DNA from: a virus
DNA length: 34,031 bases
IMG/VR virus record: IMGVR_UViG_3300005264_000028
Span: 1 to 34,031 of that record
Strand: one strand, 5' to 3'
Position 1 is the stretch's first letter, and each line of letters starts with the position of its first letter. This document shows, one piece after another, positions 5,051-30,161 of this stretch. The translations under genes were made by a program, and so were the position numbers. The notes under the pieces are model-generated. The model did not search any database and was not told where the DNA came from. It saw only the letters and a list, made by a program, of their open reading frames with translations.

Positions 5051-5839
5051 TTAATTTTTAATGTATCCATAAATATTATTTTTAGCTAACTTTCTACTTT
5101 TCTTTCTTTTAATAATAATACCATTAGCTTCATCTGTTTTTTTTTGCTCGTACTTAATTGCTTCTATCCTCATCTTTTCTATTTTTTCTTTATTAGTCTC
5201 ATTAGTAAAGTCTAATTCAACTTTTATTTCATCTGTTTGGACTCTACTAGCAGTATTATATAGTAATTGAGTTTTATTTCTTTGGAAATTCTCTTCATTT
5301 ATTACTTTCCAAAATGATTGCTCAATAATATATGTTATGTATGAAAATATATTAGAAAATGCTATCGTAAAAATATCTATTTCATATTCTTTATCTTCAT
5401 ATTCGATTTTACTATATCTTGCATTAAGTTTTTCCTTACTAGTTACTTTACTAACTATTACTTTATTATTGGATATTCTCTTTTTAATAATTACTTCAGT
5501 TCCTAATATATCGTCCAGTAAGATAGTATCAATATTTTTTTCTTCAACTATATTTTGTTTTCTCTTTAAAGCAAGCTTAGTTTTAATATAACAAGTCTTT
5601 CCATTTTTCAATTTTTTAACTTTAATATTACCTCTCTTCAAGTTTATTGCTATAAAATATAAAGCGTTCGATTTCATATCATCCCTCAGATTAGTATATC
5701 CAGAAAACTTACCCTCTCTAATAATTTCATCTATCATTATCTGAATATAATTATAGAATTTCTTTTCATATCTATATTTATTATGTTTACCATATAAATA
5801 TAATGATTCTGCTAAATCGTAATTGTTTACATAATTCAC
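5051..5839 (-). CDS. 55: gp55-like late sigma factor
   Basis: T4 gp55 directs host RNA polymerase to TATAAATA late promoters. This 262-residue protein shows collinear matches to it: NYVNNYDL at the N-terminus (T4 has YNYVNNKEL), FSGYTNLRDDM at 45-55 (T4 FSGYTQSWKQEM) and SYITYIIEQSFWKVI at 166-180 (T4 AYITQACFNAFVQRI). Between the last two blocks lies about 80 extra residues (roughly 72-155, mostly strand-like and basic), which explains the length excess over T4 gp55 (185). The T4 clamp-binding C-terminus (SLDFLY) is not obvious; the protein ends in KNNIYGYIKN. Start is GTG at 5839 with AAGGAA seven bases upstream. The late promoters in this window fit the call. Confidence 0.8.
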   Translation of the reverse strand: MNYVNNYDLAESLYLYGKHNKYRYEKKFYNYIQIMIDEIIREGKFSGYTNLRDDMKSNALYFIAINLKRGNIKVKKLKNGKTCYIKTKLALKRKQNIVEEKNIDTILLDDILGTEVIIKKRISNNKVIVSKVTSKEKLNARYSKIEYEDKEYEIDIFTIAFSNIFSYITYIIEQSFWKVINEENFQRNKTQLLYNTASRVQTDEIKVELDFTNETNKEKIEKMRIEAIKYEQKKTDEANGIIIKRKKSRKLAKNNIYGYIKN

Positions 5840-8824: not shown

Positions 8825-8826
8825 AG

Positions 8827-9333
8827 TTATTTCCTTATCTTATCTTTAAACTTTAATTTAATAAAATTTTTAACTTCGGTTACTCTTTTTTTAGAATTAT
8901 CATATACTTCCACCATATATCCTTTATTGCCTAACTTTATTTCATTTTTAGAGTATGTCATACATTGTATAGCATCTGCCATATTAACTATAACAGATTC
9001 AAATGTTTCCATCTTATCAAATTCAAAAATAGGTTTTTTAATAAAATCTGGATAAGTCTCTACAATTTCTTTTTCAACTATTTTTAGTTCTTTAGCTAAC
9101 TTAGGATATTTTTTCTTTATCAAGTGGTTGACATCATCAGTATCTGCTTCAGGAATATCGTGAGTTATCGACATTATTATAGCTTCTCCGAGATTAAAGT
9201 CATAATCTAAATATAAGTTTAAAACTTCTATAGCTACAAAAAAAGAATGTTCTGCTACATTTTCATCTTTAATTCTAGGGGTATTTGAATACCTAGTAAT
9301 ATAAGAAAGATTATAAAGTTTACTCAATTCCAT
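8827..9333 (-). CDS. HD-domain nucleotide phosphohydrolase (YfbR-like)
   Basis: This 168-residue protein has a complete HD metal site: H29 (in ENVAEHSF), H58-D59 (THDIPEAD) and D120 (NMADAI). The ENVAEHS and HDxxEAxTDD pattern resembles YfbR-type 5'-deoxynucleotidases, which dephosphorylate dNMPs. Small phage HD enzymes can also hydrolyse dNTPs, as the dATPase DatZ does in phages with 2-aminoadenine DNA, so the exact substrate is open. It overlaps the upstream deoxyribosyltransferase gene by 14 bases and is followed at once by DNA polymerase, which supports a role in controlling the dNTP pool. Start ATG with GGGAG upstream. Confidence 0.8.
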   Translation of the reverse strand: MELSKLYNLSYITRYSNTPRIKDENVAEHSFFVAIEVLNLYLDYDFNLGEAIIMSITHDIPEADTDDVNHLIKKKYPKLAKELKIVEKEIVETYPDFIKKPIFEFDKMETFESVIVNMADAIQCMTYSKNEIKLGNKGYMVEVYDNSKKRVTEVKNFIKLKFKDKIRK

Positions 9334-9742
9334 CTGTATACTCCCTCTTTATAGATAAATCTAATAATGCGTCGTCTAGTTCTTCTATAGTAGTACATAC
9401 TCTATGAGCAGGTTTAGCTAGCATTAAATTAAATTTTCCTGTTAATCCTGGAGTAAAAAATATAATAGGCTTATTTTTCTCTATGAACTGACCCACTTCT
9501 ACTAAAGTACCCATATCTTTATCTGTTGTTATTGCTATCATATAGTCGCACAGCTCAAGTTCTTCAATATTTCTAGTATATATAGTATTCCAATCACTAA
9601 TTCCATCTATACCTAAGCAATCAGTACGAGGTCTAAAGTAGTCATACTTGTTTTGATTTTCAAGTTTTTTATCTAGTATATCTAAGTGTTTTACTTGATT
9701 TGGAGTAAACCACCCACCTGCTATATAAATTTTATTTTTCAT
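9320..9742 (-). CDS. Nucleoside 2-deoxyribosyltransferase-like protein
   Basis: A 140-residue member of the nucleoside 2-deoxyribosyltransferase family, which moves 2-deoxyribose between bases or hydrolyses deoxynucleoside monophosphates. It begins with the family strand KIYIAGGWF, has the acidic D74/D76 and the nucleophile Glu (E82 in GTLVEVG), and a late FNLMLA segment that matches the substrate-closing C-terminus. Length is normal. It overlaps ThyX by 11 bases and the HD hydrolase by 14, so the three are translationally linked. It probably recycles or remodels deoxynucleotides; a role in a modified base is possible but has no other support in the window. Confidence 0.82.
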   Translation of the reverse strand: MKNKIYIAGGWFTPNQVKHLDILDKKLENQNKYDYFRPRTDCLGIDGISDWNTIYTRNIEELELCDYMIAITTDKDMGTLVEVGQFIEKNKPIIFFTPGLTGKFNLMLAKPAHRVCTTIEELDDALLDLSIKREYTDGIE

Positions 9743-10595
9743 TTAGTACCTCATTAAATATTTTTAAAAAGTAATTATGATTCGACAAAGTATCTTTAGC
9801 TTGGCTATGAGAAAATTTTGCACTACTATAATCAATATTTCTTTTATCTAATTCTTTTTTATGAAAGGAATCAGGTGGAAATGTATTCATATTCATCTTA
9901 TTATTAATTGATGAAATATAATGCTGCTGTATTTTTTCCGTAGGCATTTGTTTTTCTAAAATATCCTTAACGTCCGGATAAGCTTTTAATAATTGCTGTC
10001 TCATCTTAAGTGCTAAAATATTATCGCTATCTGGTTGATTAGTTCTTCCCAATCTAGTATTTATGAAGCCAATAAAATCTTTTATATTTCCACTCATAAA
10101 ATATTTTGCTTCTTTAGCTCTTGGTTGATAATGTCTAGCGTCATAAAAACTAATTCCTCTATTTAAAGCATCTTTGTATAGTTCATTAGATTCTAATGTT
10201 AATTTTTTAGCTCGTTCAGCTAAATCTTTATGCTCGTCAAAAGCAGAGTTAGTTAATATATCGTGGTCTTCCATTGAAACTGGGTCTGTAGATTGGGCAG
10301 AAAATGAAAATAATCTATGTCTAATAATATGTGTCACATTTGTTAAATCTAGACCTTCTAAAAAGAATGTTACTCGCACAGTTTCTAATGCAGTAGGCAG
10401 AGTTCTCCAATTAAACATCTCTCTCACACAATCTAATCTTGACATATCTCTACTTTTAAGAAATTTATCTGTGTCTTGAATATCTTGAAGCCATGTAATG
10501 CTAACAAATTCTGGTATATAATTCTCTAGTTCAGTAATTGAAGTATTAGACATAATAGTCGCATTAATACTTTCTAAATGTTTTTTATAATTCAT
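9732..10595 (-). CDS. thyX: FAD-dependent thymidylate synthase ThyX
   Basis: ThyX methylates dUMP to dTMP using methylene-tetrahydrofolate, NADPH and FAD. This 287-residue protein carries the signature RHR-x7-S (R92, H93, R94, S102 in RHRLFSFSAQS). The downstream QQLLKAYPDV helix fits the family C-terminal region, and the length is in the upper normal range. It works with dUTPase (14994-15515), which supplies dUMP. It overlaps the preceding gene by 11 bases; AGAGGAG lies upstream of the ATG. ThyX in place of T4-type thymidylate synthase (td) is common in marine and anaerobe phages. Confidence 0.92.
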   Translation of the reverse strand: MNYKKHLESINATIMSNTSITELENYIPEFVSITWLQDIQDTDKFLKSRDMSRLDCVREMFNWRTLPTALETVRVTFFLEGLDLTNVTHIIRHRLFSFSAQSTDPVSMEDHDILTNSAFDEHKDLAERAKKLTLESNELYKDALNRGISFYDARHYQPRAKEAKYFMSGNIKDFIGFINTRLGRTNQPDSDNILALKMRQQLLKAYPDVKDILEKQMPTEKIQQHYISSINNKMNMNTFPPDSFHKKELDKRNIDYSSAKFSHSQAKDTLSNHNYFLKIFNEVLNEK

Positions 10596-11849: not shown

Positions 11850-14800
11850 TTAATTACACGCAGTGAAACCACAATTCATACATATTGAACAACCGCCTTC
11901 AAAAACTAATTGGTTATCGCATTCGCTACATTTTTCACCTGTATATTCACCTTCAACAAATTTAGATAGTAATTTCTTAATTTGGAATATAAATGAATAT
12001 ACAGGAGGCTGGATTTCTTCAATAGTTTTAATAATTTCTAACATTGGAATATTATGCCTTAATAATAATGATAATGTTCTAGCAATTTTAGTAACATTAT
12101 TCTGTTTTTTATGTTTATCTTTTAGCTCATCTAATAAGATATCTTTAAGATATTTTTGCGCTAAAACTTCTAAATACTCTAATACATTATCAGTCATAAT
12201 ATTTGTTTCTGTTGAATTAGTATTAACAAATAATGAAGATGGCATTTTAGTCTCATCATTTATAGTATAAAAAACATACCATTTTCTACCCTCGGAGTGT
12301 ATGGCATTCATTATTGCATCTTGAACTGGAGCAAACTTTACATCTTCTAGCACACTACTATCTTTTCTCTTTTCGTCAACTTCTTTAAGTACACCATCTC
12401 TTGAGCCATCTCTATATATTGTAATACCTTTTAATCCTTGTTTCCATGCTTCCATATAAATATTGCTTATAACTTCTTTTGTTGTATCTCCTGGTAAATT
12501 AACAGTTGACGATATTGATTGAGAAATACTTTCTTGAATAGCTGCTTGCATTTTTACTCTTTTCTTCCAGTCTATATCTTTAGATACAATAAAATTTTCA
12601 TTCTTTAAGTGTGCATTTTTACCAAATATACTATTATACTCTTCTACTAATGGATGAAATACTTCATAGTCTTTTTCTTTACCTGCTTGTTTAACAGTTC
12701 TGTTATAAGATAATGCAAATATAGGCTCAATTCCTGATGTTCCTCTAAGTATAATACCTAAACTACCATTCGGAGCAATTGTATTTAGACCAATGTTTCT
12801 AATACCAAATTTATATAATTTATCTCTATACTCATCATCTACAGACCTCCAATATTCATGAGCTCTCCAATTTGTTAGCTCGTTTTTATCTTTGTATAAA
12901 TCTAATACTCCACACTGTCCTCTTTCTTCAGCTAAGTCTATTGACTCTTCTATACTATATTGTTTTAATATTTTTTTAATACTTTTAGTAAACTCTATAG
13001 CTTCATCTGTATCATATTTCATATTCATTTTAATTAACATATCAGCTAAGCCTGTAGCTCCAAGGCCAATTCTATTTCCTAATTTTAATGCTACTTTATT
13101 CTTTTCTAATGGTTGCCTATCATAATTTAGTATATTTACATTATCTAAAAATCTAATTGATAGCTTTACTACTTTTTTAAATTTATCATAATCAAAAGCA
13201 GCATTTTCTGTAAATGAATTAATAATAAAATTAGATAGATTAATAGATCCTAAGTTACATGCAGAACCTGGTTCTAATGGTTGTTCTCCACAATTATGTA
13301 CTAATACTCCAGAGCTATTTAAAAAATTACAATCATCTGACTTTGTTATAATATAAAAATTATGATTGTCTTTTACTGTTAAATCATACACATCTTCATA
13401 TTCATTATTGTCAATAATTTCTGTAACAAAAATTCTTTCATCTAAATATACATTATTAGATTCTTTTATTTCTTTTAATTCATTTAGTCTTTCTAAATTT
13501 TCATTATCCCATTCTTTTAATTTTTCATTAATTTTTTCTTCAGACCAATCATATCTTTTACCATTAGCTTGAATATTTGATCTACTAGAATATAATGATA
13601 AATATTCAGTTCCTTTTATTCTTTGAATTGGATTATCTTTACTATGTCTTTTAGTTCTTAATATATGTTCTACTATACTTATTAATTCTAAATTATCAAT
13701 ATTATCATTAGTAGAATCATTATCAACATGATCTAAATTATAAATTTTACCATCATATTTACCTTTTTTCTCTTCCCATATCATTCTATATTGTTTAGAA
13801 TAACCGTTTATCTTACTTTTAATGTGCCTATAAGATTTTTCTGTATTTTTATTAGAAAATGTGTAAAATTTTTCTAACTCTAATCCTAAAGTAGATTTAG
13901 CTTCAACATAAGATTTTCCATCAGGTAAAGCTAATAGATGTTCTGGTGTACATTTAATAATGGAAGCATCACTTAATTTAAGAGTAATTATTTTTCTTTC
14001 TCCAGTCTTAAAAGCCACAGCTGGTTTAATTTCTACTTTCCATTGATTTTTTGAACCACTTTTTCTAGCAGAATAAACATTGAATTTTTCATCTTTATCT
14101 GATAACTCCTTAATACTAACTCCATTTCTACCATCAGCAACAGCTACTATTGTGTCACCAGTAAAACAAGGATTTGTTGATACAGGCTTAGTTTCTTTAA
14201 ATATACTAGAAGGATCATTATCTATTATGCTATCCCAATATAATAGTCCAGGCTCTGCTCCATTATAATTTGACTCTACTATTAAGTCCCATATAAGTTT
14301 AGCTTTTTCAACTCTTTCAATTACTTCATTAGAGTGAGTAGTAAATGTCATTTTCCAGTCACTGTCTTCTTCAACTGCTTCCATAAAATCATTATTAATT
14401 CTGATAGATATATTAGCATACTGGACTTTTGTTTTATCTTTACCACCTTTAATATTAATAAAATCAATTATATCTGGGTGATTAATATCCATTGTTAGCA
14501 TCAATGCTCCACGTCTTCCGTGCTGTCCAATTATTCCAGTGACACTAGAGTATAAATCCATAAAACTAGTAGGCCCTGTTGTTGTTCCTGCTGAGTTGTT
14601 AACTTTACTACCTTTTGGTCTAAGCGTAGATATATCAAAGCCAACCCCACCCCCTTTACTAAAAATTCTTGCTTGTCTTTTAGCAGTATTAAAGATTTCT
14701 TCTATACAGTCAGCTCTAATATCTTCAACATAGCAATTTGAAAATGTCGCAGTTAAATCATAAGGATTGCCTAAAGCATATAAAACTCTTCCCGCTGGTA

Positions 14801-14990
14801 GAAAATTATTTATTAAAGGTGTAAAGTCTGTATTATCAATAATCTTAATAGCACCAAACATTCTATTATATATGTCTAATAATGAGAATTCTGTGACTTC
14901 ATCATTTTTATTTTTCAAAGCATATTTATTTACAAATACATTAGACGCTAATTCATCTCCATTAAAGTTTGATAAGATTTTCTTATTCAT
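11850..14990 (-). CDS. nrdJ: Adenosylcobalamin-dependent (class II) ribonucleotide reductase with intein
   Basis: This 1046-residue precursor contains an intein of 292 residues (275-566), leaving a mature enzyme of about 754 residues. It reduces ribonucleotides to deoxyribonucleotides using a vitamin B12 radical. The first redox cysteine is C86 (FSNCYVEDI), the active-site loop NPCGEQPLEPGSACNLGSIN is split by the intein, and further class II motifs follow (GSLGIILRGTSGIEPIFA). The C-terminus ends in a zinc ribbon, CSECDNQL then CSICMNCGFTAC, typical of NrdJ and absent from class I NrdA. No nrdB is present, as expected. Start ATG with AAAGGAC upstream; the gene follows dUTPase by three bases. 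A B12 enzyme makes the phage independent of oxygen. Confidence 0.93.
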   Translation of the reverse strand: MNKKILSNFNGDELASNVFVNKYALKNKNDEVTEFSLLDIYNRMFGAIKIIDNTDFTPLINNFLPAGRVLYALGNPYDLTATFSNCYVEDIRADCIEEIFNTAKRQARIFSKGGGVGFDISTLRPKGSKVNNSAGTTTGPTSFMDLYSSVTGIIGQHGRRGALMLTMDINHPDIIDFINIKGGKDKTKVQYANISIRINNDFMEAVEEDSDWKMTFTTHSNEVIERVEKAKLIWDLIVESNYNGAEPGLLYWDSIIDNDPSSIFKETKPVSTNPCFTGDTIVAVADGRNGVSIKELSDKDEKFNVYSARKSGSKNQWKVEIKPAVAFKTGERKIITLKLSDASIIKCTPEHLLALPDGKSYVEAKSTLGLELEKFYTFSNKNTEKSYRHIKSKINGYSKQYRMIWEEKKGKYDGKIYNLDHVDNDSTNDNIDNLELISIVEHILRTKRHSKDNPIQRIKGTEYLSLYSSRSNIQANGKRYDWSEEKINEKLKEWDNENLERLNELKEIKESNNVYLDERIFVTEIIDNNEYEDVYDLTVKDNHNFYIITKSDDCNFLNSSGVLVHNCGEQPLEPGSACNLGSINLSNFIINSFTENAAFDYDKFKKVVKLSIRFLDNVNILNYDRQPLEKNKVALKLGNRIGLGATGLADMLIKMNMKYDTDEAIEFTKSIKKILKQYSIEESIDLAEERGQCGVLDLYKDKNELTNWRAHEYWRSVDDEYRDKLYKFGIRNIGLNTIAPNGSLGIILRGTSGIEPIFALSYNRTVKQAGKEKDYEVFHPLVEEYNSIFGKNAHLKNENFIVSKDIDWKKRVKMQAAIQESISQSISSTVNLPGDTTKEVISNIYMEAWKQGLKGITIYRDGSRDGVLKEVDEKRKDSSVLEDVKFAPVQDAIMNAIHSEGRKWYVFYTINDETKMPSSLFVNTNSTETNIMTDNVLEYLEVLAQKYLKDILLDELKDKHKKQNNVTKIARTLSLLLRHNIPMLEIIKTIEEIQPPVYSFIFQIKKLLSKFVEGEYTGEKCSECDNQLVFEGGCSICMNCGFTACN
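13293..14168 (-). mobile_element. Intein in NrdJ active-site loop with HNH endonuclease domain
   Basis: The intein spans residues 275-566 of the precursor. It starts at C275 (block A, CFTGDTIVAVADG), has block B with CTPEHLLALPDG near 347-358, and ends with blocks F and G, YDLTVKDNHNFYI then VLVHN566, followed by C567 as the +1 nucleophile. Excision restores TNPCGEQ, so the inserted point is the catalytic NPC motif itself. Between the splicing blocks, IYNLDHVDNDSTNDNIDNLE (416-435) is an HNH-type nuclease signature. All splicing residues look intact, so both splicing and homing may be active. Confidence 0.9.
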
Positions 14991-14993
14991 ATT

Positions 14994-15515
14994 TTATTGT
15001 CCTTTATTAGTTGACCCAAATCCACCAGATTTTCTATCAGATTGAGAATTTTTATATAAAGTTTCTAACGAAGTTTCTTCTGTAATACTGCATAAATTTA
15101 TTGGTAGTAAAATAAATTGAACAATTTTTTCATCAAAATAAATTATTACCTCTACATTAGAAGTATTTAGTAAACTTATGTGAACTTCTCCTTCGTAAGA
15201 ACTATCTACAACTGCAGCCAATACAGATAATCCTTTTTTAGTAGATACTCCTGATTTATTATATGCAACTAACGCATTACTACTAGCAAATTTAACATGA
15301 ATTCCGCTTGGTATAAGAATGCTACTGTGTGCAGGTACTACTATACCTTCATTATTTTCTAATAAACGTATGTTATTATTTTTGTTTACTTCAATACTTA
15401 ACAATTTTTTAGTAAAATCTTCAGTATTACTTGGACAATAAAAATCTATTCCAGCGTCAGTAGAATGACCTCTTTCAATTGACTTTGTTTCCAGTGTTTT
15501 TACATAGTTTAACAT
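14994..15515 (-). CDS. dut: dUTPase
   Basis: A trimeric-type dUTPase of 173 residues that hydrolyses dUTP to dUMP, keeping uracil out of DNA and feeding ThyX. All five motifs are seen: STDAGIDFY (18-26), NKSGVSTKKG with K replacing the usual R of RSG, AAVVDSSYEGEVHISLLN, EKIVQFIL, and the C-terminal RKSGGFGSTN. Length is somewhat above the 145-155 norm because of extra residues between motifs 1 and 2. It is three bases upstream of nrdJ in the same operon. Start ATG at 15515 with AAGGAG upstream. Confidence 0.93.
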   Translation of the reverse strand: MLNYVKTLETKSIERGHSTDAGIDFYCPSNTEDFTKKLLSIEVNKNNNIRLLENNEGIVVPAHSSILIPSGIHVKFASSNALVAYNKSGVSTKKGLSVLAAVVDSSYEGEVHISLLNTSNVEVIIYFDEKIVQFILLPINLCSITEETSLETLYKNSQSDRKSGGFGSTNKGQ

Positions 15516-18544: not shown

Positions 18545-18970
18545 TTATTTTCCTTTTATATAAGTATACTCATAAACTTTTTCATTATAGATAAATTTCA
18601 TTACATTAAAGAACTTAAAAAGTGACGCGAGCTGTCTTAATTCGTTATGATATTTATCATAAAAATCATTTTTGTAATTTGCATACTCCACATACATCCA
18701 ACTATTTACAGCTAACTCATGTTCTTTATTAAAAAAATTAAATACCTTTTCTTCAGTGCAATAAATATATGGGTGATTGTGTTTATATCCATTTCTTCTT
18801 AAGTATTGTAATATATCAGTAATTAGTTCAATCTCAGCTTTAAATGTATCACTACACTGGTCATTTGTTAATTCTATGTTATACTCTCTAATTACAATTC
18901 CATCTTTAGTCTTAATTAAAATATTTCGGTTAAAAAGTTCATGTGGTGTGATAATAATATCTATTCTCAT
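18545..18970 (-). CDS. Unknown protein (141 aa)
   Basis: A soluble 141-residue protein with a strand-rich N-terminus (MRIDIIITPHELF, KDGIVIREYNIEL) followed by an acidic helix (DTFKAEIELITDILQYL). The order loosely recalls an RNase H-like fold, but the expected catalytic acids are not all present, so no enzymatic call is made. It has its own weak promoter (18997-19025) and AAGGAG before the ATG at 18970. Its end lies just before the promoter of the next operon. Confidence 0.75.
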   Translation of the reverse strand: MRIDIIITPHELFNRNILIKTKDGIVIREYNIELTNDQCSDTFKAEIELITDILQYLRRNGYKHNHPYIYCTEEKVFNFFNKEHELAVNSWMYVEYANYKNDFYDKYHNELRQLASLFKFFNVMKFIYNEKVYEYTYIKGK

Positions 18971-18996
18971 TGGTTTATTTCTCCTTTATTGACATA

Positions 18997-19035: not shown

Positions 19036-19090
19036 TAAATAACTTAATAATATATATTATGTTTTTAATAAAAAGAGAAATTAGTAATTA
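19036..19090 (+). repeat. Direct repeat copy A of a late leader sequence
   Basis: About 55 bases (from TAAATAACTTAAT to AGAAATTAGTAATTA) repeat almost perfectly at 21019-21074, with roughly three differences. Both include the palindrome ATAATATATATTAT. Copy A lacks the TATAAATA box that precedes copies B and C, and no plus-strand gene follows. The stop codon of the minus-strand HTH gene uses its last bases. Confidence 0.85.
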
Positions 19091-20266
19091 TAATAGAATG
19101 CTATATCGCTGTCGTCTATTAATGAAGGACTGTCTAAATTTATTATTACTTTTACTAATAATAACATTTTGGGTATTAGTCTTCTTACTTAAATATACTT
19201 TTAATCTATATTTATCAGACTTAATTCTCCTACCTTCTATATCTCTTTTATTATTTTCATAATGATCCATTAAATGTATATTGCTTTTTTCTAATGAAAG
19301 GTTATTAGCATATAAATAAAAGTAATCATTAAGATTATTACTATTTCCAAACTTATCATAGTTAATACTTGTACCTTCTCGAAGTTGCCCCTTACATATA
19401 TAGGTTTTCTCTTTTCCCGACGAAAGTGTTACGATTTGTTTGTTTTTAGAAATATCACTGATTACTTGATATTTATATTTAGCACTTACATTTAATTTAA
19501 GCTCACCCCTCAGTGAACTATATTGTTTATTGTTTTTATATTTAAAATATATTTTATCATCAATCTTAACTAATCTACTACCTTCTAATCTAATTATATA
19601 AAATTGTTGAATTGTTTTCTTTTCATGATAGTGTGATACTATTGAATATCTACCTCGTTTAATAGTATTAAAATATTTCAATTTTTGTTTAGCATCTTCC
19701 CAAGATTTTAATTCATTATATTCAGTTAGCCTTTTAAAAGAATATATTTTATCAATACCTTTTGTTTGTTGTGATACTACACTTTGAGAAATATTTAGAG
19801 TTTTAGATATTTTTTGTTGAGAAGTAAAGTTTATAAAACTACCATACTTATTTAGTTTTTGAAATGATTTAATATTTGGTCTTGTATAAAGAAATTCTAT
19901 TACTTCTTTTTTGAAAATATTAAAAGTAAATTTCTTAATATCTTTTATTTCATAACTTAAATATATAGTGTCACTATTTTCATAGTCATACTTAGGTTTA
20001 ATTGTAATAAAGTCTCTATTATATGATTTTATATAAGAAGATAATTGAAATTGATTTAATAGCTTGTTTATATACTTTAACGAATGATTCTTATAGCCTA
20101 TAAGCTTTAAAAATTTAATAAGAGTAGATTTCTTAATTGTATTACTATGTTTCTTAGCAATCCCTTTCTTTCTTAAGTGAAATAGTAGATTTCTAGAAAT
20201 TGTAAGTAGATACTTATTAATTAAGTCTTCATCATTATTAGAGTCTAATATTGACTCATATATCAT
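19088..20266 (-). CDS. Putative HTH DNA-binding regulator (392 aa), family unknown
   Basis: A basic 392-residue protein. At about residues 148-170, SQQKISKTLNISQSVVSQQ is a classical helix-turn-helix (turn at NIS, second helix starting SQSVVSQQ). The remainder is rich in lysine, tyrosine and asparagine, with predicted winged or strand-rich parts, and ends in an R/K-rich stretch (NRRQRYSILL). No known phage regulator or replication initiator is recognisable. The gene lies between two direct repeats with two small genes on the same strand, and its promoter overlaps an inverted repeat (20322-20355), so autoregulation is plausible. The ATG at 20266 has no good ribosome binding site. Confidence 0.75.
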   Translation of the reverse strand: MIYESILDSNNDEDLINKYLLTISRNLLFHLRKKGIAKKHSNTIKKSTLIKFLKLIGYKNHSLKYINKLLNQFQLSSYIKSYNRDFITIKPKYDYENSDTIYLSYEIKDIKKFTFNIFKKEVIEFLYTRPNIKSFQKLNKYGSFINFTSQQKISKTLNISQSVVSQQTKGIDKIYSFKRLTEYNELKSWEDAKQKLKYFNTIKRGRYSIVSHYHEKKTIQQFYIIRLEGSRLVKIDDKIYFKYKNNKQYSSLRGELKLNVSAKYKYQVISDISKNKQIVTLSSGKEKTYICKGQLREGTSINYDKFGNSNNLNDYFYLYANNLSLEKSNIHLMDHYENNKRDIEGRRIKSDKYRLKVYLSKKTNTQNVIISKSNNKFRQSFINRRQRYSILL

Positions 20267-20315
20267 CAGTTTATTTATAATAGCTTGTTATTACCTTTAT
20301 TTAGAATTCTGTTAT

Positions 20316-20355
20316 AATATAATAAATAACTTTCAATAAATCAATAGTTATTTAT
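20316..20355 (-). promoter_or_regulatory. Promoter with operator-like inverted repeat upstream of HTH gene
   Basis: Minus strand TTGATT (20339-20344), 17 bases, TATATT (20316-20321). A 10-base inverted repeat (ATAAATAACT at 20322-20331, AGTTATTTAT at 20346-20355, 14-base centre) brackets the -35 box and spacer. A TATAAATA octamer also occurs on this strand at 20349-20356, so late expression is possible. Confidence 0.6.
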
Positions 20356-20369
20356 AAATTTCTTAATCT

Positions 20370-20600
20370 TTATTTATATAGCGTTACAAAATGTCCAAAA
20401 TTATTATCAAATACATTTATTAAATTTTCATAATCTGATGTTTGCATATCTTTTAATATTTGATTAGTTTTCTCTTTACTAAATTCTAACATTCTACAAT
20501 ATCCCTTTGCTTTACCTAATAATACAAAAGCATTTCCTTCACTTCCAGTTAAATCTATTTCTACTACACTTATTTTTTCATCAATACTCTTAATAGTCAT
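20370..20600 (-). CDS. Conserved small phage protein (76 aa)
   Basis: A 76-residue protein of a type common in phages and of unknown function: it starts with an acidic strand containing IDLTGSEGNAFVLLGKAKGY, then a helix (EFSKEKTNQILKDM), then a motif YENLINVFDNNFGHFVTL. It is preceded by AAGGAG and follows the 101-residue gene by four bases. Both belong to the minus-strand module between the direct repeats. Confidence 0.8.
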   Translation of the reverse strand: MTIKSIDEKISVVEIDLTGSEGNAFVLLGKAKGYCRMLEFSKEKTNQILKDMQTSDYENLINVFDNNFGHFVTLYK

Positions 20601-20604
20601 TTCT

Positions 20605-20910
20605 TTAATTCTCCTTTATGATTATTATTTCTTTTATAGTTAATTCTTCCCAAGTTTTATATCCTCGACTTGGTTTATCAATAATTGTTAAGTATGGCTT
20701 AAACTTATAATAATATTTTGTTTTGTCGGTATCGCCTTGTCCGTCTTCTTTCCAAGTTTTACCACAATCACAGACATAGCCTTTGATTTGGTACTTATTT
20801 AATCCTTTGTTAGGAGTATCAAACTTAATCAATACATCAAAGTCATCACCTAAAACTTTTTGGTCAAAACTTACTGTTTCTTCTTTTTTACTTTCACATT
20901 TTTCACACAT
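20605..20910 (-). CDS. Small protein with cysteine pairs (101 aa)
   Basis: A 101-residue protein starting MCEKCESKKEE and containing a later CDCGKTW. The four cysteines in two C-x-x-C or C-x-C pairs could bind one zinc ion. The middle is aromatic and strand-like (KYYYKFKPYLTII). It is the first gene after a consensus promoter at 20952-20980, with AAGGAG before the ATG. Function unknown. Confidence 0.75.
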   Translation of the reverse strand: MCEKCESKKEETVSFDQKVLGDDFDVLIKFDTPNKGLNKYQIKGYVCDCGKTWKEDGQGDTDKTKYYYKFKPYLTIIDKPSRGYKTWEELTIKEIIIIKEN

Positions 20911-20951
20911 TTTCTTACTCCTTTATTATGTTAAATTAACCTACAACTACA

Positions 20952-20980
20952 ATATAATAATAATTTTTAATAATGTCAAG
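20952..20980 (-). promoter_or_regulatory. Sigma70-like promoter of the small-gene pair
   Basis: Minus strand TTGACA (20975-20980), 17 bases, TATATT (20952-20957), matching the early pattern exactly. It reads left into the 101- and 76-residue genes. The late promoter for the terminase starts 20 bases away in the other direction. Confidence 0.8.
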
Positions 20981-20999
20981 CTTTATTTTTTAATTATTT

Positions 21000-21007
21000 T
21001 ATAAATA
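21000..21007 (+). promoter_or_regulatory. T4-type late promoter of the terminase locus
   Basis: Exact TATAAATA on the plus strand, followed after a few bases by leader copy B. The same order (octamer, then AGTAGAGTAAATAA) recurs at 25071-25094 before the neck gene. Confidence 0.75.
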
Positions 21008-21011
21008 TTAA

Positions 21012-21074
21012 AGTAGAGTAAATAACTTAATAATATATATTATGTTTTTTATAAAAAAGAGAAATTAGTAATTA
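21012..21074 (+). repeat. Direct repeat copy B: conserved late leader of terminase
   Basis: The leader begins AGTAGAGTAAATAA and contains the palindrome ATAATATATATTAT followed by GTTTTTT and an A/G-rich stretch. It is nearly identical to copy A over about 55 bases and clearly related to copy C at 25081. It separates the late promoter from the terminase start and would be the 5' untranslated region of the transcript. Confidence 0.8.
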
Positions 21075-21112: not shown

Positions 21113-21646
21113 TTGGAGCTACCATTATATGGTGATATGAATCTATTTGATTTTATAGATAAGAATATTTCATGGGATGTGTTTGTAAAAATAACTGATT
21201 TGATTGACATTGAAACTATTCCAGATATTAGTAAAGATGTAAATGGAATATCAATAGAATTTAAAAGAAAACCTAGTATTATTAGAGAAGATGCAATTTA
21301 TGACTTATTACCAATACATCATTTAGTTAATATAAGATGTAAAAATGATATACAATATTTTGCTCAATTTTTTAAAGTAGTATCAATTGATGATGGCTTA
21401 ATAAGAATGCCATTAAGAAAGTTTCAAGTAAAAGCATTAGACTTATTTGTTAATGATCCCAAAGTTGCACTTTCTTGTTCAAGACAAGTTGGAAAATGTG
21501 TGCAATTTAACACTTTTATAAATATAAGAAATAAGAAGACAAATAAAATAGAAAATATCACTATACATAGACTATATTTTCGACTTCTTATAAAAAATAT
21601 TAAAAGGAGTGTTAAAAATGGAATTAAAAGAATGCTTTATATGTAA
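21113..21646 (+). CDS. 17: Large terminase gp17-like, N-terminal part fused to N-half of a split intein
   Basis: Residues 1-128 are the N-terminal part of a T4 gp17-type packaging ATPase, ending in the P-loop fragment SRQVGK (T4 has SRQLGKTT). The next residue, C129, begins a 49-residue intein N-fragment, and the gene then stops. The missing part of the terminase is encoded at 23044-24888. Adding the two exteins gives 608 residues, the size of T4 gp17 (610). The start is uncertain: TTG at 21113 is the only usual start codon before the ATG at 21137, and neither has a good ribosome binding site. The frame is open back to 21026. Transcribed from the late promoter at 21000. Confidence 0.9.
   Translation: MELPLYGDMNLFDFIDKNISWDVFVKITDLIDIETIPDISKDVNGISIEFKRKPSIIREDAIYDLLPIHHLVNIRCKNDIQYFAQFFKVVSIDDGLIRMPLRKFQVKALDLFVNDPKVALSCSRQVGKCVQFNTFINIRNKKTNKIENITIHRLYFRLLIKNIKRSVKNGIKRMLYM
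21497..21643 (+). mobile_element. Split intein, short N-fragment (49 aa)
   Basis: It starts at C129, directly after SRQVGK. Only intein block A is present (CVQFNTFINIRNKK), followed by IENITIHRLYFRL and a basic tail. Block B is absent and instead lies in the downstream gene. This division, with a very short N-fragment, is the atypical type known from the AceL-TerL intein of metagenomic terminases, whose N-fragment begins CVYGDTMVETEDGK. Confidence 0.88.
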
Positions 21647-23051
21647 GAAGAAATTTGAGGGTAAACAAACTAAAATTAAATTTTTATGTTCTGATATATG
21701 TAGAAAAATAAGCAGGTATAATAACAAAGGAATTAATTATTATGATTTTCCTAAATGTGAAATTTGTGGAGAAAGATTTAAAGGATTAGATCAACATTTA
21801 AGACAACATCATGAACTTGATAAAAGTGGTATAGAAAAATATTTAATGAAAAATAATATCACTAAAGAAGATTTAATATATAAAGATAAAAAATATAAAA
21901 AGATTTGTATTATATGTGGTAATGAGTACTATAATCAAATACCATCATCAAAGACTTGTTCAAATAAAATGTGTAAAGAAAAACAGTATTTTAATTCAAT
22001 TAAAAGTAATGTTAGTGCTGACTATGATAGTTTATTAGAATGTAAAATTTGCAATAAAAGAACATCTAAATTAGCAAATCATATAAAATATCATCATAAA
22101 GATATTAGTGTTGATAGTTACTGTAAAAAATATAACTTAACTAAAAAAGATTTAATTCATAATAAATTAGTTGAATATATGAGTGAAAGAATTAAAGGAG
22201 ATAAAAATCCATTATATCAGCATAATGGTAAATTTTCATCATATAGTAAAAATTTTATTAAATATGATAAATTATCAGAAGATGAAAAAGAAAAAGAAAT
22301 AAATAAAATAGTTAATAAGATGAAGAAAACTAAGTTAGATAATGAACTATATCCTCAAAGAATAGAATATTGGATTAAACAAGGATACACAGAAAAAGAA
22401 GCTAAAGAAAAAGTATCAGAAAGGCAAACAACATTTTCTAAAGAAAAATGTATTATAGAGTATGGTGAAATTGAAGGATTAAAGATATTCAATGAAAGGC
22501 AGAGAAAGTGGCAAGAAACTTTAAATAATAAAAGTGATGAAGAAAAAGCAGAAATTAATTTGAAGAAAAATCCATTTAATCATTTAAACTTCACTAATAG
22601 GTATGGTGAAATTGATGGAATGATTAAATATAATGAATTTAGACTAAATAACAGTAAAACTTATTCTAAAATATCAATAGAAATGTTTGATGAAATAATA
22701 AAACAAGGAAGTTTAGACTTAAGCGATGTTGAATATAAAGAAAATGAAACTATAAGCTATGACGAAACAAATAATAAATATTATTTATATGATTTTACTC
22801 TTTACTCAAAAAAGAAAATAATAGAATTTAATGGTGATTATTGGCATGCTTCTCCTAAAAAATATAGAAATAATGAAGTAATAAAACAAATGAATAGAGA
22901 AATATCCGTAGATGAAATATGGAAGCAAGATTATATAAAAGTAAATCATGCTATTAGTAAGGGATATGAAGTTTTGATTATATGGGAAAGTGATTATAAA
23001 AATAATAAGAAAAAGATAATTAATAAATGTTTGGAGTTTTTAAATGTTTAA
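21618..23051 (+). CDS. Free-standing EDxHD (Vsr-like) homing endonuclease between intein halves
   Basis: A 477-residue protein. The N-terminal 200 residues hold several zinc-finger-like motifs (CFICKKKF, CEICGERFKGLDQHLRQHH, CIICGNEYY, CKICNKRTSKLANHIKYHH). The centre has two copies of a YGEIxG-type DNA-binding segment, and the C-terminus has the nuclease signature E403, D407 and H410 in IEFNGDYWH followed by WKQDY and GYEVLIIWESD. This is the EDxHD family described in fractured genes with split inteins. The frame opens at GTG 21609, but ATG 21618 has AAGGAG eight bases upstream. The gene overlaps the N-intein end by 29 bases and the C-intein start by 8. Confidence 0.9.
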   Translation: MELKECFICKKKFEGKQTKIKFLCSDICRKISRYNNKGINYYDFPKCEICGERFKGLDQHLRQHHELDKSGIEKYLMKNNITKEDLIYKDKKYKKICIICGNEYYNQIPSSKTCSNKMCKEKQYFNSIKSNVSADYDSLLECKICNKRTSKLANHIKYHHKDISVDSYCKKYNLTKKDLIHNKLVEYMSERIKGDKNPLYQHNGKFSSYSKNFIKYDKLSEDEKEKEINKIVNKMKKTKLDNELYPQRIEYWIKQGYTEKEAKEKVSERQTTFSKEKCIIEYGEIEGLKIFNERQRKWQETLNNKSDEEKAEINLKKNPFNHLNFTNRYGEIDGMIKYNEFRLNNSKTYSKISIEMFDEIIKQGSLDLSDVEYKENETISYDETNNKYYLYDFTLYSKKKIIEFNGDYWHASPKKYRNNEVIKQMNREISVDEIWKQDYIKVNHAISKGYEVLIIWESDYKNNKKKIINKCLEFLNV

Positions 23052-23445
23052 TTATATAACACATAATATAATATCTTTTTTCTTAAATAAATTCATAAAA
23101 ATATCAGATAAATTTATTTCTATTTTAGAAACAGATGAATATGAAGTTTTATCTTATGATGAATATAAAGATTTTAAAGGAATTGGTTTAACTAAAAAAT
23201 ATCAAATATATGTAATTACTTTAGAAAATAATATAGTTTTAGAGTGTGCAGATAATCATATTTTAATAGATAATTTTAATAATAAAATATTCGCTAAAGA
23301 TTTAACAAAAAATGATATGCTAGTTACTAATAAAGGAATTTCTAGTGTTAAGTCAATAAAAATATTAAATAAATTTGATAACATGTATGATTTAATTGAT
23401 GTTGATGACAAGCTATATTATACTAATGGATTATTAAGTCATAAC
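23044..23445 (+). mobile_element. Split intein, long C-fragment (134 aa)
   Basis: It carries block B (LECADNHILI, residues 67-76, with the conserved H72), a middle region (KIFAKDLTKNDML) and blocks F/G (MYDLIDVDDKLYYTNGLLSHN). The fragment starts MFNYITHNI, comparable to AceL-TerL (MFRTNTNNI), and its ITNG-type ending matches too. The +1 residue is threonine, an accepted nucleophile. All key splicing residues are intact. Confidence 0.9.
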
Positions 23446-24888
23446 ACTACTATTGTTACAGTATATGCTTGTTGGAAATTTATCTTTAGAGAATATAATA
23501 CAACAGCAATCATTGGTAATAAGAAATCAACAGCAATGGAAGTATTAGAAAGAGTTCAAATAGGTTATGAATCACTTCCTAAGTTTATGCAACAACCAAT
23601 AGTCACTTATAATAAAGGTGATATGAAAGGTACTAATGGTTCTAAAATATTCACATCAGCAACTACAAGAGATAGCATTTCTGGTAAATCTGTGAATGAT
23701 TTAATAATTGATGAGGTAGCAAAAATTCCATTAAATATGTGGAATGATTTTTGGGGTGCAACATATCCAGTAATTGCCTCAGCTAAAAAGAAGTCTAGTA
23801 TTAGTGTTATTATGATGTCAACACCTTATGGAGATAATCATTGGAAAGAAATAGTTGATAAAGGTAATTTAGAAGGAACTCCTAATTGGAATGGATTTAA
23901 AGTACTAAATGTTACTTATAAAGATATTCCAGAAAGAAATAATAAAAAATGGAGAGATGAGCAACTAGCAGTAATGTCATTAAATCAATTTGAACAAGAC
24001 CATGAAACAAAATTTGTTGTATTAGAAAATATATATATTGACGGTAAAGTATTAGAAAATATAAAAGTTAAATATCCAATTAGTGATAGCTTTATAAATC
24101 AAAAATTAAAAAAGTATACTGAGCAAATATCAACATATTATTCTCCAATTAAAGGACATAAATATATTATATCAATAGACCCATCAGAAATGACATTATA
24201 TTCAAAAGAAGGTGATAATGATAATATAGGTATTCAAATTTTAGATGTTACAGATGTTAGAAAAAAAATAAAACAAGTATTAACAATTAATTTTAAAGAT
24301 CATTTTGATTATTTAGAATCATCTTTAATATTATATATATTAGGTAAATATTATAATGATGCTCTAATAGTTGGTGAAAATAATATTGCTAAACAAATAC
24401 TAAATGATTTGAGAACTGATTATGAATATGATAATATATATTCTGAAAAGAAAGAAATTTATGGATATAGATTAACAAAATCAAATAAACCAATGATTGC
24501 TAAGATAATGAAATTTTTAATTGAAAATGATATACTAGAAATCAATGATGACGATACAGTAAAAGAACTTAAAGTATTTACTAAACAATTAAAAGCAATG
24601 ACACCTTTAACAGATGGTCTTGTAACATCATTATTAGCTGGATTATATTTTATGACTTGGAAGAAAAATAAAATTGAAAATTTAATTGGTGATGAATCAG
24701 ATGGAGTTTATATCAAAACTGGAAAGGAATTGTTAAAACTATCATTAGATGAAGATATTGATGAAGATAAAGAACTTTCAGATATTATTATACAATCAAA
24801 TGAAGATGAAGAATTAGTTCAAGAAATATTAAGAGATAATGGATTCTTTGATGAGCAGGAAGAAGAAACTAGTACTATAATGTTTTAG
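23044..24888 (+). CDS. 17: C-half of split intein fused to C-terminal part of large terminase
   Basis: A 614-residue protein. Residues 1-134 are an intein C-fragment ending in SHN; T135 starts the terminase C-extein TTIVTVYACW, which completes the P-loop as SRQVGK-TT. The rest is gp17-like: Walker B with D223-E224 (LIIDEVAKIP), coupling motif MSTPYGDNH, and the nuclease domain with D379 (ISIDPSE), E445 (IVGENN) and D524 (TDGLVTSL). It has its own ATG at 23044, overlapping the endonuclease stop, and GGAG seven bases upstream, so it is a real separate gene. Packaging requires trans-splicing with the 21113-21646 product. Confidence 0.92.
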   Translation: MFNYITHNIISFFLNKFIKISDKFISILETDEYEVLSYDEYKDFKGIGLTKKYQIYVITLENNIVLECADNHILIDNFNNKIFAKDLTKNDMLVTNKGISSVKSIKILNKFDNMYDLIDVDDKLYYTNGLLSHNTTIVTVYACWKFIFREYNTTAIIGNKKSTAMEVLERVQIGYESLPKFMQQPIVTYNKGDMKGTNGSKIFTSATTRDSISGKSVNDLIIDEVAKIPLNMWNDFWGATYPVIASAKKKSSISVIMMSTPYGDNHWKEIVDKGNLEGTPNWNGFKVLNVTYKDIPERNNKKWRDEQLAVMSLNQFEQDHETKFVVLENIYIDGKVLENIKVKYPISDSFINQKLKKYTEQISTYYSPIKGHKYIISIDPSEMTLYSKEGDNDNIGIQILDVTDVRKKIKQVLTINFKDHFDYLESSLILYILGKYYNDALIVGENNIAKQILNDLRTDYEYDNIYSEKKEIYGYRLTKSNKPMIAKIMKFLIENDILEINDDDTVKELKVFTKQLKAMTPLTDGLVTSLLAGLYFMTWKKNKIENLIGDESDGVYIKTGKELLKLSLDEDIDEDKELSDIIIQSNEDEELVQEILRDNGFFDEQEEETSTIMF

Positions 24889-25022
24889 TATTCATTCTTA
24901 TTCTGCTTCCATTTTCTTCTATCATTTCTATTTCTGTATTTTTTAGACTTTTCCATAGTATAAGAACTAGTATTTATCTTATCTACTACTCTCACCTTAA
25001 TATTTTTAATTTCTATTTTCAT
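24885..25022 (-). CDS. Small basic protein, convergent with terminase (45 aa)
   Basis: A 45-residue frame on the minus strand, starting at ATG 25022 and ending within the terminase stop codon. The first half is strand-like (MKIEIKNIKVRVV), the second highly basic (KYRNRNDRRKWKQNKNEY), suggesting RNA or DNA binding. The ribosome binding site is weak (TTAGAGA). A promoter-like TTGACT-N17-TAAATT lies just upstream. It is plausible but could be a chance frame in an intergenic gap. Confidence 0.5.
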   Translation of the reverse strand: MKIEIKNIKVRVVDKINTSSYTMEKSKKYRNRNDRRKWKQNKNEY

Positions 25023-25031
25023 AATATCTCT

Positions 25032-25060
25032 AATTTAATATTATATTTATAAATAGTCAA
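25032..25060 (-). promoter_or_regulatory. Possible promoter for the 45-aa gene
   Basis: Minus strand TTGACT (25055-25060), 17 bases, TAAATT (25032-25037). The spacing equals that of the consensus promoters but the -10 box is weaker. It overlaps the first rightward late octamer. Confidence 0.4.
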
Positions 25061-25078
25061 GTATTATTTTTATAAATA
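25048..25078 (+). promoter_or_regulatory. Two tandem T4-type late promoter octamers
   Basis: Exact TATAAATA at 25048-25055 and 25071-25078, 23 bases apart, upstream of the neck gene. The paired arrangement mirrors 11158-11190. The second octamer is followed by the conserved leader. Confidence 0.7.
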
Positions 25079-25080
25079 AT

Positions 25081-25124
25081 AGTAGAGTAAATAATCTAAT
25101 ACTATATATTATGTTTTAAATAAA
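25081..25124 (+). repeat. Conserved late leader, copy C
   Basis: The segment starting AGTAGAGTAAATAA and continuing to TATATTATGTTTT is a diverged copy of the terminase leader at 21012. The palindrome ATAATATATATTAT is broken here (ATACTATATATTAT). It ends before AAGGAAATAAATTATAA, which recurs upstream of the gene at 28615. Confidence 0.7.
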
Positions 25125-25157
25125 AAGGAAATAAATTATAATTAAGGAAGTATGTAA

Positions 25158-25781
25158 ATGGCATTCACAAAATTTAGACATAACACAGTACCGTTAACAG
25201 AAAAAAGTTATAATCAAAATTTAAAGCAAACTACTGAAATATTTGAAAAATTTGGTAGTAAGTGTTTATATATACCTAGAGTTGAAGTTGATGAAACTTT
25301 AGTTGGTGGAAACTATTTAGATATGTTATATGATGCTGGGCAAGAAATATATTTGAGAGTTACTGGGCATGAAAGTGTAGATGAAGGTAATTTCTTTTCA
25401 AAATTCGGGTATTCTGATCAATCTTCATTAGAGTTTTTTGGTTCAATAGAACAATTTGCTGAAATATCAATAGTGCCAGAAATAGGCGACTTAATTTACG
25501 TTGAAGATTTAAATAAGAAATTATATGAAGTTACACATTCTACTCATCAAACAGTAAATAATAAATATGTATTTGGTAAACCATCAACTTTCCAATTAAA
25601 GTGTAAACTACACAATATTGATTTAATTTCAACTTATACAACTGGAAATATCGATATTGATAGTCAAGATAATGAAAGTGATGAAACAGATACTAAGATG
25701 AATAATGAAATAACTCAAAAAATAACAGATAATAATATAGTTGATAATAGTGAAAGTAATCCTCTTAATGATTTTGAATGA
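25158..25781 (+). CDS. 14: gp14-like neck protein
   Basis: The protein has 207 residues; T4 gp14, which closes the filled head and joins the tail, has 256. Collinear matches include CLYIPRVEVDETLVGG (T4 CYYVPREYVSPDLIFG), FFSKFGYSDQSSLEFFGS (T4 FFSNFGMQVQDEVTL), EIGDLIYVEDLNKKLYEV (T4 EGDLIYFPMDNSLFEI) and an acidic end SNPLNDFE (T4 SSPFDNDF). The C-terminal 45 residues are D/N/S-rich and probably flexible. Start ATG at 25158 with AAGGAAG upstream. Late expression from the octamers at 25048 and 25071. Confidence 0.85.
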   Translation: MAFTKFRHNTVPLTEKSYNQNLKQTTEIFEKFGSKCLYIPRVEVDETLVGGNYLDMLYDAGQEIYLRVTGHESVDEGNFFSKFGYSDQSSLEFFGSIEQFAEISIVPEIGDLIYVEDLNKKLYEVTHSTHQTVNNKYVFGKPSTFQLKCKLHNIDLISTYTTGNIDIDSQDNESDETDTKMNNEITQKITDNNIVDNSESNPLNDFE

Positions 25782-25846: not shown

Positions 25847-26026
25847 ATGAAAAAAGAAAATTTTAAAGAATATTATGAGAAAGAAATAATACAAGAAAAG
25901 ATAGATTCTAATAAACAGTTTGAATCAGATCTAATTCAAGGTACTAAAGATTATGAAAATGGTGATTATGTTAATATGACATCTGATGAGTTTGAGAAAT
26001 ATATGGAGAAAGAATATGGTATATAA
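25847..26026 (+). CDS. Putative antitoxin (59 aa)
   Basis: A 59-residue acidic protein starting at ATG 25847 with AAAGGAG upstream, under its own promoter. It starts MKKENFKEYYEKEI and ends MTSDEFEKYMEKEYGI, a helical acidic C-terminus typical of toxin-wrapping antitoxin tails. No DNA-binding fold is obvious, though the protein is very short. Its last codons contain the ribosome binding site and start codon of the toxin gene, the usual antitoxin-first, overlapping arrangement. The call rests on the partner and layout. Confidence 0.75.
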   Translation: MKKENFKEYYEKEIIQEKIDSNKQFESDLIQGTKDYENGDYVNMTSDEFEKYMEKEYGI

Positions 26027-26318
26027 TCTAATACAAACAAATGTATATAAAAAGAGATATATTAAGTTTTTGAAGAAATATCAATATATGAAAAAGAAAT
26101 TAAGCAAAGTTACAACTCAATTAGAAAATGATCCGGATGTTACATGGTTGGAGAATCATAATTTAAAAGGTAAACTAAAGAAATATTCAACCTCTAAAAT
26201 AAATGATGGATTTAGAATTGGTTATGAGCGAAGAGGTAAAAATATTATATTACTAGCTTTAGGAACTCATGCTGAAGTTTATAATAAACAACTGAAAGAG
26301 GATATTATAGATGAATGA
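26016..26318 (+). CDS. RelE/YafQ-superfamily toxin
   Basis: A 100-residue protein of the RelE fold: a basic helical hairpin at the start (VYKKRYIKFLKKYQYMKKK), then the ENHNLKGKLKKYSTSKI strand and GFRIGYERRGKNIILLALG, ending with the THAEVY motif whose His is catalytic in YafQ-like ribosome-dependent mRNA interferases. The frame is open from 25986, but ATG 26016 has GGAG seven bases upstream and overlaps the antitoxin end by 11 bases. It likely cleaves mRNA on ribosomes unless bound by the antitoxin. The tail gene start overlaps its stop. Confidence 0.85.
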   Translation: MVYNLIQTNVYKKRYIKFLKKYQYMKKKLSKVTTQLENDPDVTWLENHNLKGKLKKYSTSKINDGFRIGYERRGKNIILLALGTHAEVYNKQLKEDIIDE

Positions 26319-28614: not shown

Positions 28615-29088
28615 ATGAAAACTATTAGAGAATTTGTAAGTCAAGATTTTTTATTCGAGATGGGATTTGGTAAAAAAATTATAGAGGATAAAGTTAGAAA
28701 TAGAGCTAAAAATTTTATTACTCATATAATGAGAATGATTATACTAGATTGTAGTAGTGAAGAATATAAAAAACACTTAAAAGACCCACTAATTCCATTA
28801 TCTCATGAACTAAATGATTTGTGGGTAAATAAATCTAATAACAGACTATCTAGTAAAACATATTTTAAATTATTATATACTGATTTCTTAGGAACAAACG
28901 ATCGAGTTATTAATAGAATTTATTTAAGACTAATTGAAAAATATAAAAATAATAATGTAATAATAGAGAAAGAAAATGTTAGAATTATTTTAAAGGATAT
29001 ACTAAGTAAAATATCTAATGATATGGGTTTAGATATTTTAAAAAATATGAATATTTATTTAGATGATTATACTAAGATTATAATATAG
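28615..29088 (+). CDS. Unknown protein with capsid-targeting-like leader (157 aa)
   Basis: The protein begins MKTIREFVSQDFLFE, close to the MKTxxEFI-type leader of T4 internal head proteins, and shares MKTIRE with the pseudogene at 26968. Beyond it lies a mainly helical body, with basic helices early (IIEDKVRNRAKNFITHIMR) and LKDILSKISNDMGLDILKNM near the end. It has both early and late promoter signals. Start ATG with AAAAGGAAA upstream. The gene ends in a 12-base tandem repeat that duplicates the stop codon (TAG at 29086-29088 and 29098-29100). No family recognised; packaging with the head is a hypothesis. Confidence 0.75.
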   Translation: MKTIREFVSQDFLFEMGFGKKIIEDKVRNRAKNFITHIMRMIILDCSSEEYKKHLKDPLIPLSHELNDLWVNKSNNRLSSKTYFKLLYTDFLGTNDRVINRIYLRLIEKYKNNNVIIEKENVRIILKDILSKISNDMGLDILKNMNIYLDDYTKIII

Positions 29089-29249: not shown

Positions 29250-29813
29250 ATGAATTTCGAACAATTATTAGAAAAATTTAGTGAAGTAAGAAAGACAGTT
29301 GAAGATTTCTGTAAAAATAATAAAATATCTTATAATACTATTAAGTATCTTGATGGTGGTATGCAGGGTGAGATATATAGCATAAATAATAAACTAGTAG
29401 TTAAAGTATTAGATACTAATAAATTTAAAAGCGATATAAAAGCTTACAAATCTATTATGAAACATAAATATAAAACTACAAATGAAATTAATTATATTTT
29501 TGAAGATAAAAATAGAACTTTTATAATTCAGAAAAAATTAAAACAATTAAAATTACAAGATGAAGAAATATTTAGTGATATTCATTCTGTTGTAAAGAGT
29601 GAAGTAGGAGGTGATTATAATATCTTTGATTGTGATTTAGACGAGATTGAAGAGAAGTATGATAGTCATTTTGAAGAAGATGGGGATGCTCATTTTGATT
29701 TTTTAAGAGAAGCTCAAAAAGAATTAAAAAGTAAATTTAAGTTTAAAGATTGGCATAATGAAAACTATATGATGAATGGAAGTGAATTTGTAATTATAGA
29801 TGGATTAAAATAG
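29250..29813 (+). CDS. Mini kinase-like protein (187 aa)
   Basis: The protein contains a compact protein-kinase-like pattern: a glycine-rich loop YLDGGMQGEIYS (33-44), VVKVL with the ATP-binding lysine, an FIIQKKL hinge region, and at the C-terminus FKDWHNENYMM followed by FVIIDGL, resembling the catalytic HxDxxxxN and DFG segments with altered order (DWHNEN). Normal kinases need 250 or more residues; this one lacks much of the C-lobe, while residues 95-150 are acidic. It may be a small kinase, a phosphotransferase or a pseudokinase. Expressed late, first gene after the terminator. Confidence 0.65.
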   Translation: MNFEQLLEKFSEVRKTVEDFCKNNKISYNTIKYLDGGMQGEIYSINNKLVVKVLDTNKFKSDIKAYKSIMKHKYKTTNEINYIFEDKNRTFIIQKKLKQLKLQDEEIFSDIHSVVKSEVGGDYNIFDCDLDEIEEKYDSHFEEDGDAHFDFLREAQKELKSKFKFKDWHNENYMMNGSEFVIIDGLK

Positions 29814-30161
29814 ATGAATATAACAGATAGAAAAAGAATTTGTAGATTCGATAAAGAACAAATAATTAAAGATATAGTAAAAATATCAGAAAATTATGAT
29901 AGTCATAAATATGAATTAGAAACTGAATTAGATGAATATTTATATGAATATGATTTCTTCAAGTATGAAAATACTAAAAATAAATTTAATGTATATAGAT
30001 TCTCATTTTCTATATATATAATTATAATATTATTTTTAGGTTTATTTATATTACCTTTAAGGTGGATTATAACTGGTAATTATTATGTGAGTGGTAAAAG
30101 TAAGTTTGCTAAATTTATTAGTGTTTGGTATGATAGAATACAAGGTAAAAAATGTATATAA
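29814..30161 (+). CDS. Single-pass membrane protein (115 aa)
   Basis: One hydrophobic segment (about 64-82, FSIYIIIILFLGLFILPL) follows a charged N-terminal half (RFDKEQIIKDIVKISEN). The C-terminal part is basic and aromatic (KSKFAKFISVWYDRIQGKKC). It starts immediately after the kinase-like gene stop (TAGATG). A holin is possible from size and late position, but one segment and the context do not prove it. Ends overlapping the fibre gene. Confidence 0.7.
   Translation: MNITDRKRICRFDKEQIIKDIVKISENYDSHKYELETELDEYLYEYDFFKYENTKNKFNVYRFSFSIYIIIILFLGLFILPLRWIITGNYYVSGKSKFAKFISVWYDRIQGKKCI

Follow-up and report, generated by a model that had tools for sequence, protein, structure and literature searches.

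Repeated late leaders bordering an early-type gene block beside the terminase gene of a divergent T4-like phage

Gene shuffling at promoter cassettes (PeSL) has been reported in T4-like phages (Arbiol 2010; Comeau 2014, both as relayed in PMC4503421). In the Campylobacter group II phages CP21 and CP220, arrays of 1–2.9 kb built from units of 72–86 bp separate genome modules of 28–55 kb (PMC4546147). For phage T4, a recombination box for the amplification of gene 17 has been described (Wu and Black 1995, as cited in PMC3012670). Endonuclease genes are found near terminase genes and at the boundaries of phage genetic exchange (PMC10448857). Here we describe a pair of repeated late leaders on either side of a block of early-type genes next to a terminase gene.

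The window, by which we mean the whole stretch of 34,031 nucleotides that was analysed (IMG/VR record IMGVR_UViG_3300005264_000028), encodes a terminase, a gp32-like protein, a clamp loader, a DNA polymerase, a ribonucleotide reductase and late connector and tail proteins. This gene set marks the source as a T4-like myovirus, and it is a very divergent one; the closest terminases, among the IMG/VR matches listed, share 33–34% identity with it. Genes to the left of the boundary between the early-type block and the terminase are mostly on the minus strand and of early type, those to the right are on the plus strand and of late type, and the two halves diverge at this boundary.

A pattern scan of IMG/VR for the leader matched a single contig, IMGVR_UViG_3300005264_000010 (73.8 kb, hereafter G001). 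Positions 1–104 of the window correspond to the last 86 bases of G001 (73699–73784) and are identical to them except for one 18-bp indel, so that a polymorphism between strains probably interrupted the assembly. Beyond this overlap, the only similarities between the two sequences are short intergenic repeats and three protein matches that are both short and weak. Judging from the overlap, we take G001 to be the left neighbour of the window from the same phage population; together they would represent about 108 kb of phage. Among the records open to the leader and cassette pattern scans, all matches were limited to G001, in the same phage, and one stricter pattern matched nothing.

Several other features of the two sequences were recorded. 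The gene for the large subunit of ribonucleotide reductase (11850–14990, minus strand) contains an HNH endonuclease match at residues of about 382–454, which is probably an intein. A RelE-like toxin match (25986–26318) lies within the late tail and connector region. Genes that start with MKTIREF-like peptides and share common upstream DNA occur at 28615–29088 and about 26975, and at 10213, 20976 and 29096 of G001; we take these starts to resemble the capsid targeting sequence found on internal proteins of T4. G001 also encodes a late protein of 1231 residues (6385–10080) with a weak match, just under the Pfam cut-off, to PARP-type ADP-ribosyltransferases, as well as two related DUF7487 endonuclease-like genes on opposite strands (310–1365 and 50267–51436; 68% DNA identity over 729 bp). 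A further dispersed repeat family, 68–84% identical, is present at 15401–15500, 29798–29898 and 46616–46796 of that contig.

Two near-identical repeats of about 55 bases are located on the plus strand at 19036–19090 (copy A) and 21019–21074 (copy B), as a preliminary description had stated. They are 96% identical over 55–56 bp (E = 3.1e-21). A leader core pattern allowing up to three mismatches occurs at three sites in the window, compared with none in 100 shuffles. Copy B is the late leader of the terminase, and the matching late promoter octamer, TATAAATA, is found upstream of it at 21000–21007 on the plus strand. Copy A has neither this octamer nor a late gene after it, again in agreement with the preliminary description. 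The nearest octamer-like sequence, TAAAAATA at 18994, matches at seven of eight positions and is displaced, lying about 42 bp upstream of the leader as against 19 bp at copy B.

The left edge of copy A is abrupt. The 30 bp upstream of it resemble the corresponding bases of copy B no better than shuffled sequence does, whereas copy B and a third copy match each other in this region (0 of 500 shuffles). On the right, copy A ends exactly where the stop codon (19088–19090) of a gene for a protein of 392 residues ends, the three bases of the codon being the last three of the repeat.

Two further copies of the leader were found that the preliminary description had not included. Copy C (25079–25140, plus strand) directly follows an octamer at 25071–25078, with a second octamer at 25048, and precedes a head-closure gene (25158–25781; PHROG Hc2, 1e-15). 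When the octamer is included, the alignment extends over 83 bp (25063–25145) with 84% identity to copy B. Copies B and C are direct repeats either side of the terminase, 4,069 bp apart. Copy D lies about 100 kb away, at 5338–5384 of G001, and has a broken octamer, TATAATA. Upstream of it are the major capsid gene (Pfam Gp23) and a strong hairpin accompanied by a run of T; downstream follow an early promoter, a DUF559 nuclease gene and a late gene that has an octamer of its own. No partner for copy D was found within the 73.8 kb of G001.

Alignment of the leader cores gives scores of 45 for A with B, 39 for A with D and 33 for A with C. Copy A is thus closer to copy B than to either of the others, above all in its last 16 bp. 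The intact octamer is present just upstream of copies B and C and of many late genes in G001; it is absent at copy A and broken at copy D. The leader thus forms a small dispersed family of late promoters and leaders with at least four copies in about 108 kb, of which B and C look like working copies and A and D like promoterless relics. Each of the two relics adjoins accessory early-type genes.

The block between copies A and B consists of three open reading frames on the minus strand. Their own promoters, which had also been noted previously, were located as two sigma70-like patterns. The first gene (20605–20910) encodes a protein of 101 residues with cysteine motifs, for which no relative was found, and the second (20370–20600) a protein of 76 residues that belongs to PHROG 1933, of unknown function, and shares 53% identity with a protein of the Methylophilales phage Melnitz. 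The putative early promoter of the module, TTGACA-17-TATATT, is at 20951–20979 on the minus strand. The third gene (19088–20266) has a promoter pattern of its own, TTGATT-17-TATATT, at 20316–20344 on the same strand, and encodes the orphan protein of 392 residues, in which a helix-turn-helix-like stretch can be recognised by eye. No relatives of this protein were found in viral_contigs, genome_contigs, phages, plasmids, PDB sequences, Pfam, PHROGs or NCBIfam; the sole matches in the family searches were far under the cut-offs, and a single-sequence AlphaFold model had a pLDDT of 33 and was useless. To the left of copy A lies an early gene for a protein of 141 residues (18545–18970, minus strand), with no good early promoter between the gene and copy A. 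Its best promoter match is 9 of 12 positions, whereas four other early genes in the window match at all 12.

The right end of the block is a divergent promoter cassette (20931–21012), in which the early promoter faces left and the late octamer faces right. From its sequence, this cassette is predicted to fire the early genes leftward and the terminase rightward. Copies with 81–86% identity are present at 41046, 44399 and 62951 of G001, each with a minus-strand gene on one side and a late plus-strand gene on the other. A copy with 89% identity is found at 17680 of G001; here and at 10141 it is the early part of the cassette that is repeated. Copy A has neither half of the cassette. The late leaders at 41046, 44399 and 62951 are short and different, so that the cassette belongs to another repeat family than the long leader. 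In the late region of G001, further early modules, such as those starting at 41020 and 62953, showed no leader relic in repeat searches.

The terminase gene itself (21137–24888) is interrupted by a split-intein-like sequence (SRQVGK/C ... HN/TT), which divides it into two parts. According to sequence and family matches, the first part (21137–21646, plus strand) encodes the N-terminal portion of the large subunit with the N-half of the intein, and the second (23044–24888, plus strand) the C-half of the intein with the C-terminal portion. An endonuclease-like gene (21618–23051) is located between the halves, an arrangement like the "fractured genes" described for phages. Between the terminase and the Hc2 gene there is also an open reading frame of about 45 codons (24885–25024, minus strand) with its own early promoter (25060), divergent from copy C; together they look like a smaller version of the architecture of the module.

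The observation of a leader-flanked block is real and well placed, and its reading as a gained module is reasonable but unproven. The explanation we favour, to which we would give an even chance, is that the three genes are an accessory early module acquired when recombination took place in shared regulatory DNA, and that copy A is a stranded former leader. The block would be an accessory module sitting where the early minus-strand half and the late plus-strand half of the genome diverge. Most likely, recombination at the leader brought it in and stranded copy A, and the original promoter DNA to the left of copy A would then have been lost. The terminase, as well as the early gene on the left side of copy A, would now depend on promoters inside the module. 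The octamers at copies B and C, the abrupt left edge of copy A, its right edge at the stop codon, the repeated cassette and the promoter-poor neighbour of copy A all fit a gain of this kind. Copy D, with its broken octamer, a nuclease gene with an early promoter and a late gene behind a new octamer, fits a parallel outcome.

Part of the earlier interpretation is retained here: copy A does look like a promoterless relic of a leader of the terminase type, with copy B as its best match. The proposal that entry of the module duplicated the leader fares less well. A simple insertion predicts an octamer to the left of copy A, and none is there, so that a further deletion or a different route would be needed. 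The claim is also weakened because the leader is a dispersed family of four copies, in which B and C likewise flank the terminase and D is solitary. Flanking copies alone thus prove nothing and need not mark insertions. A relative with an empty site, which bears on the direction of the event (gain of the module as opposed to loss or rearrangement), was absent from the collections searched, in which no close relative of the phage was found at all; the terminase relatives in IMG/VR, at about 34% identity among the matches listed, are too distant for such a comparison.

A computed recombination product between copies A and B lacks 1,983 bp. It keeps the leader and is left with only the displaced seven-of-eight octamer, the octamer lost being the terminase's only intact late octamer nearby. 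Such recombination would remove the block together with this promoter element, a cost that would tend to keep the module in place and may explain why the block persists.

The serious rival is that copy A is a stray member of the dispersed leader family, which lost its late gene or arose by unrelated copying. Its position opposite copy B would then be coincidental, and the three genes would have come separately or always been present. We regard this as possible, though doubtful. Four leader copies within about 108 kb are in keeping with it, as are the lone octamer-less copy D, the general abundance of repeated intergenic regulatory sequences in this phage and the occurrence of the divergent cassette elsewhere without the long leader. 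It accounts poorly for the closer similarity of copy A to B than to C or D, for the coincidence of its edge with a stop codon and for an adjoining early gene that is without its promoter.

Copy A might instead have been retained because it is itself functional; it could, for instance, form the 3' end or a stabilising hairpin in the mRNA for the 392-residue protein, or serve as an antisense start. Its 96% identity to copy B despite the missing promoter, and its direct contact with the stop codon, would suit such a role. Predicted RNA folding of the leader copies was, however, no better than that of shuffled sequences (z of about −0.9 to +0.6 on the plus strand); no covariation in the leader RNA, no terminator-like site in the leader unit and no Rfam or tRNA matches were found. 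We consider this reading improbable.

Slightly less probable still is that the leader copies are recombination boxes for amplification of the terminase gene, with copy A as an outlying box. The direct repeats B and C either side of the terminase recall T4, in which gene 17 amplification uses a sequence-specific recombination box, as far as this is set out in PMC3012670. However, a plain leader role accounts for the position of both copies directly behind late octamers, and copy D is near the major capsid gene rather than the terminase. A transposable element with the 55-bp repeats as its ends or target-site duplication was suggested by the direct repeats either side of the block and is rejected as highly improbable: there is no transposase or integrase family match, there are no convincing terminal inverted repeats (just weak long AT-rich pairs at the ends, 70–73% identical), the repeat greatly exceeds the usual length of such duplications, and copies C and D occur without the block.

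If the module was indeed gained at the leader, gene shuffling at regulatory cassettes would extend from early promoters to late leaders. There would also be a simple reason for a stable accessory block beside an essential gene, in spite of direct-repeat flanks in a recombination-prone phage, and the terminase promoter of the A–B deletion becomes a concrete test point. A broader version, which we think unlikely, is that late leaders are preferred joining sites that capture accessory early modules with their own divergent cassette ahead of essential late genes, and that such a module, as the source of the sole late promoter of an essential gene, is then hard to lose.

Compared with the described systems, the association of nucleases with exchange boundaries (PMC10448857) has a counterpart in the terminase with its inserted endonuclease-like gene and in copy D beside the DUF559 gene; the block between copies A and B, in contrast, contains no recognisable nuclease. 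Copies B and C resemble the T4 gene 17 box, as presented in PMC3012670, in being short direct repeats either side of a terminase gene. Here the repeats are late leaders, and the likeness is one of arrangement. CP21 and CP220 are likewise AT-rich T4-related phages with genome modules bounded by repeats, but in the present phage single copies of 55 bp bound a module of 2 kb.

The likeness to the PeSL cassettes, as far as PMC4503421 describes them, lies in repeated intergenic regulatory DNA beside accessory genes of a T4-like phage, at which recombination has been proposed. Here too there are several copies, four in number, and A and D border accessory genes. The PeSL unit of that account comprises an early promoter and a stem-loop terminator, whereas the present unit is a late promoter and leader. 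Its early promoter sits in the separate divergent cassette beside copy B, and the unit has no terminator-like site. With these two defining parts lacking, the leader family may work like PeSL cassettes and is not filed as a member. The shuffling of genes into a genome through common regulatory DNA is a theme already known from other T4-like phages, and what seems different here is that the repeat is a late leader.
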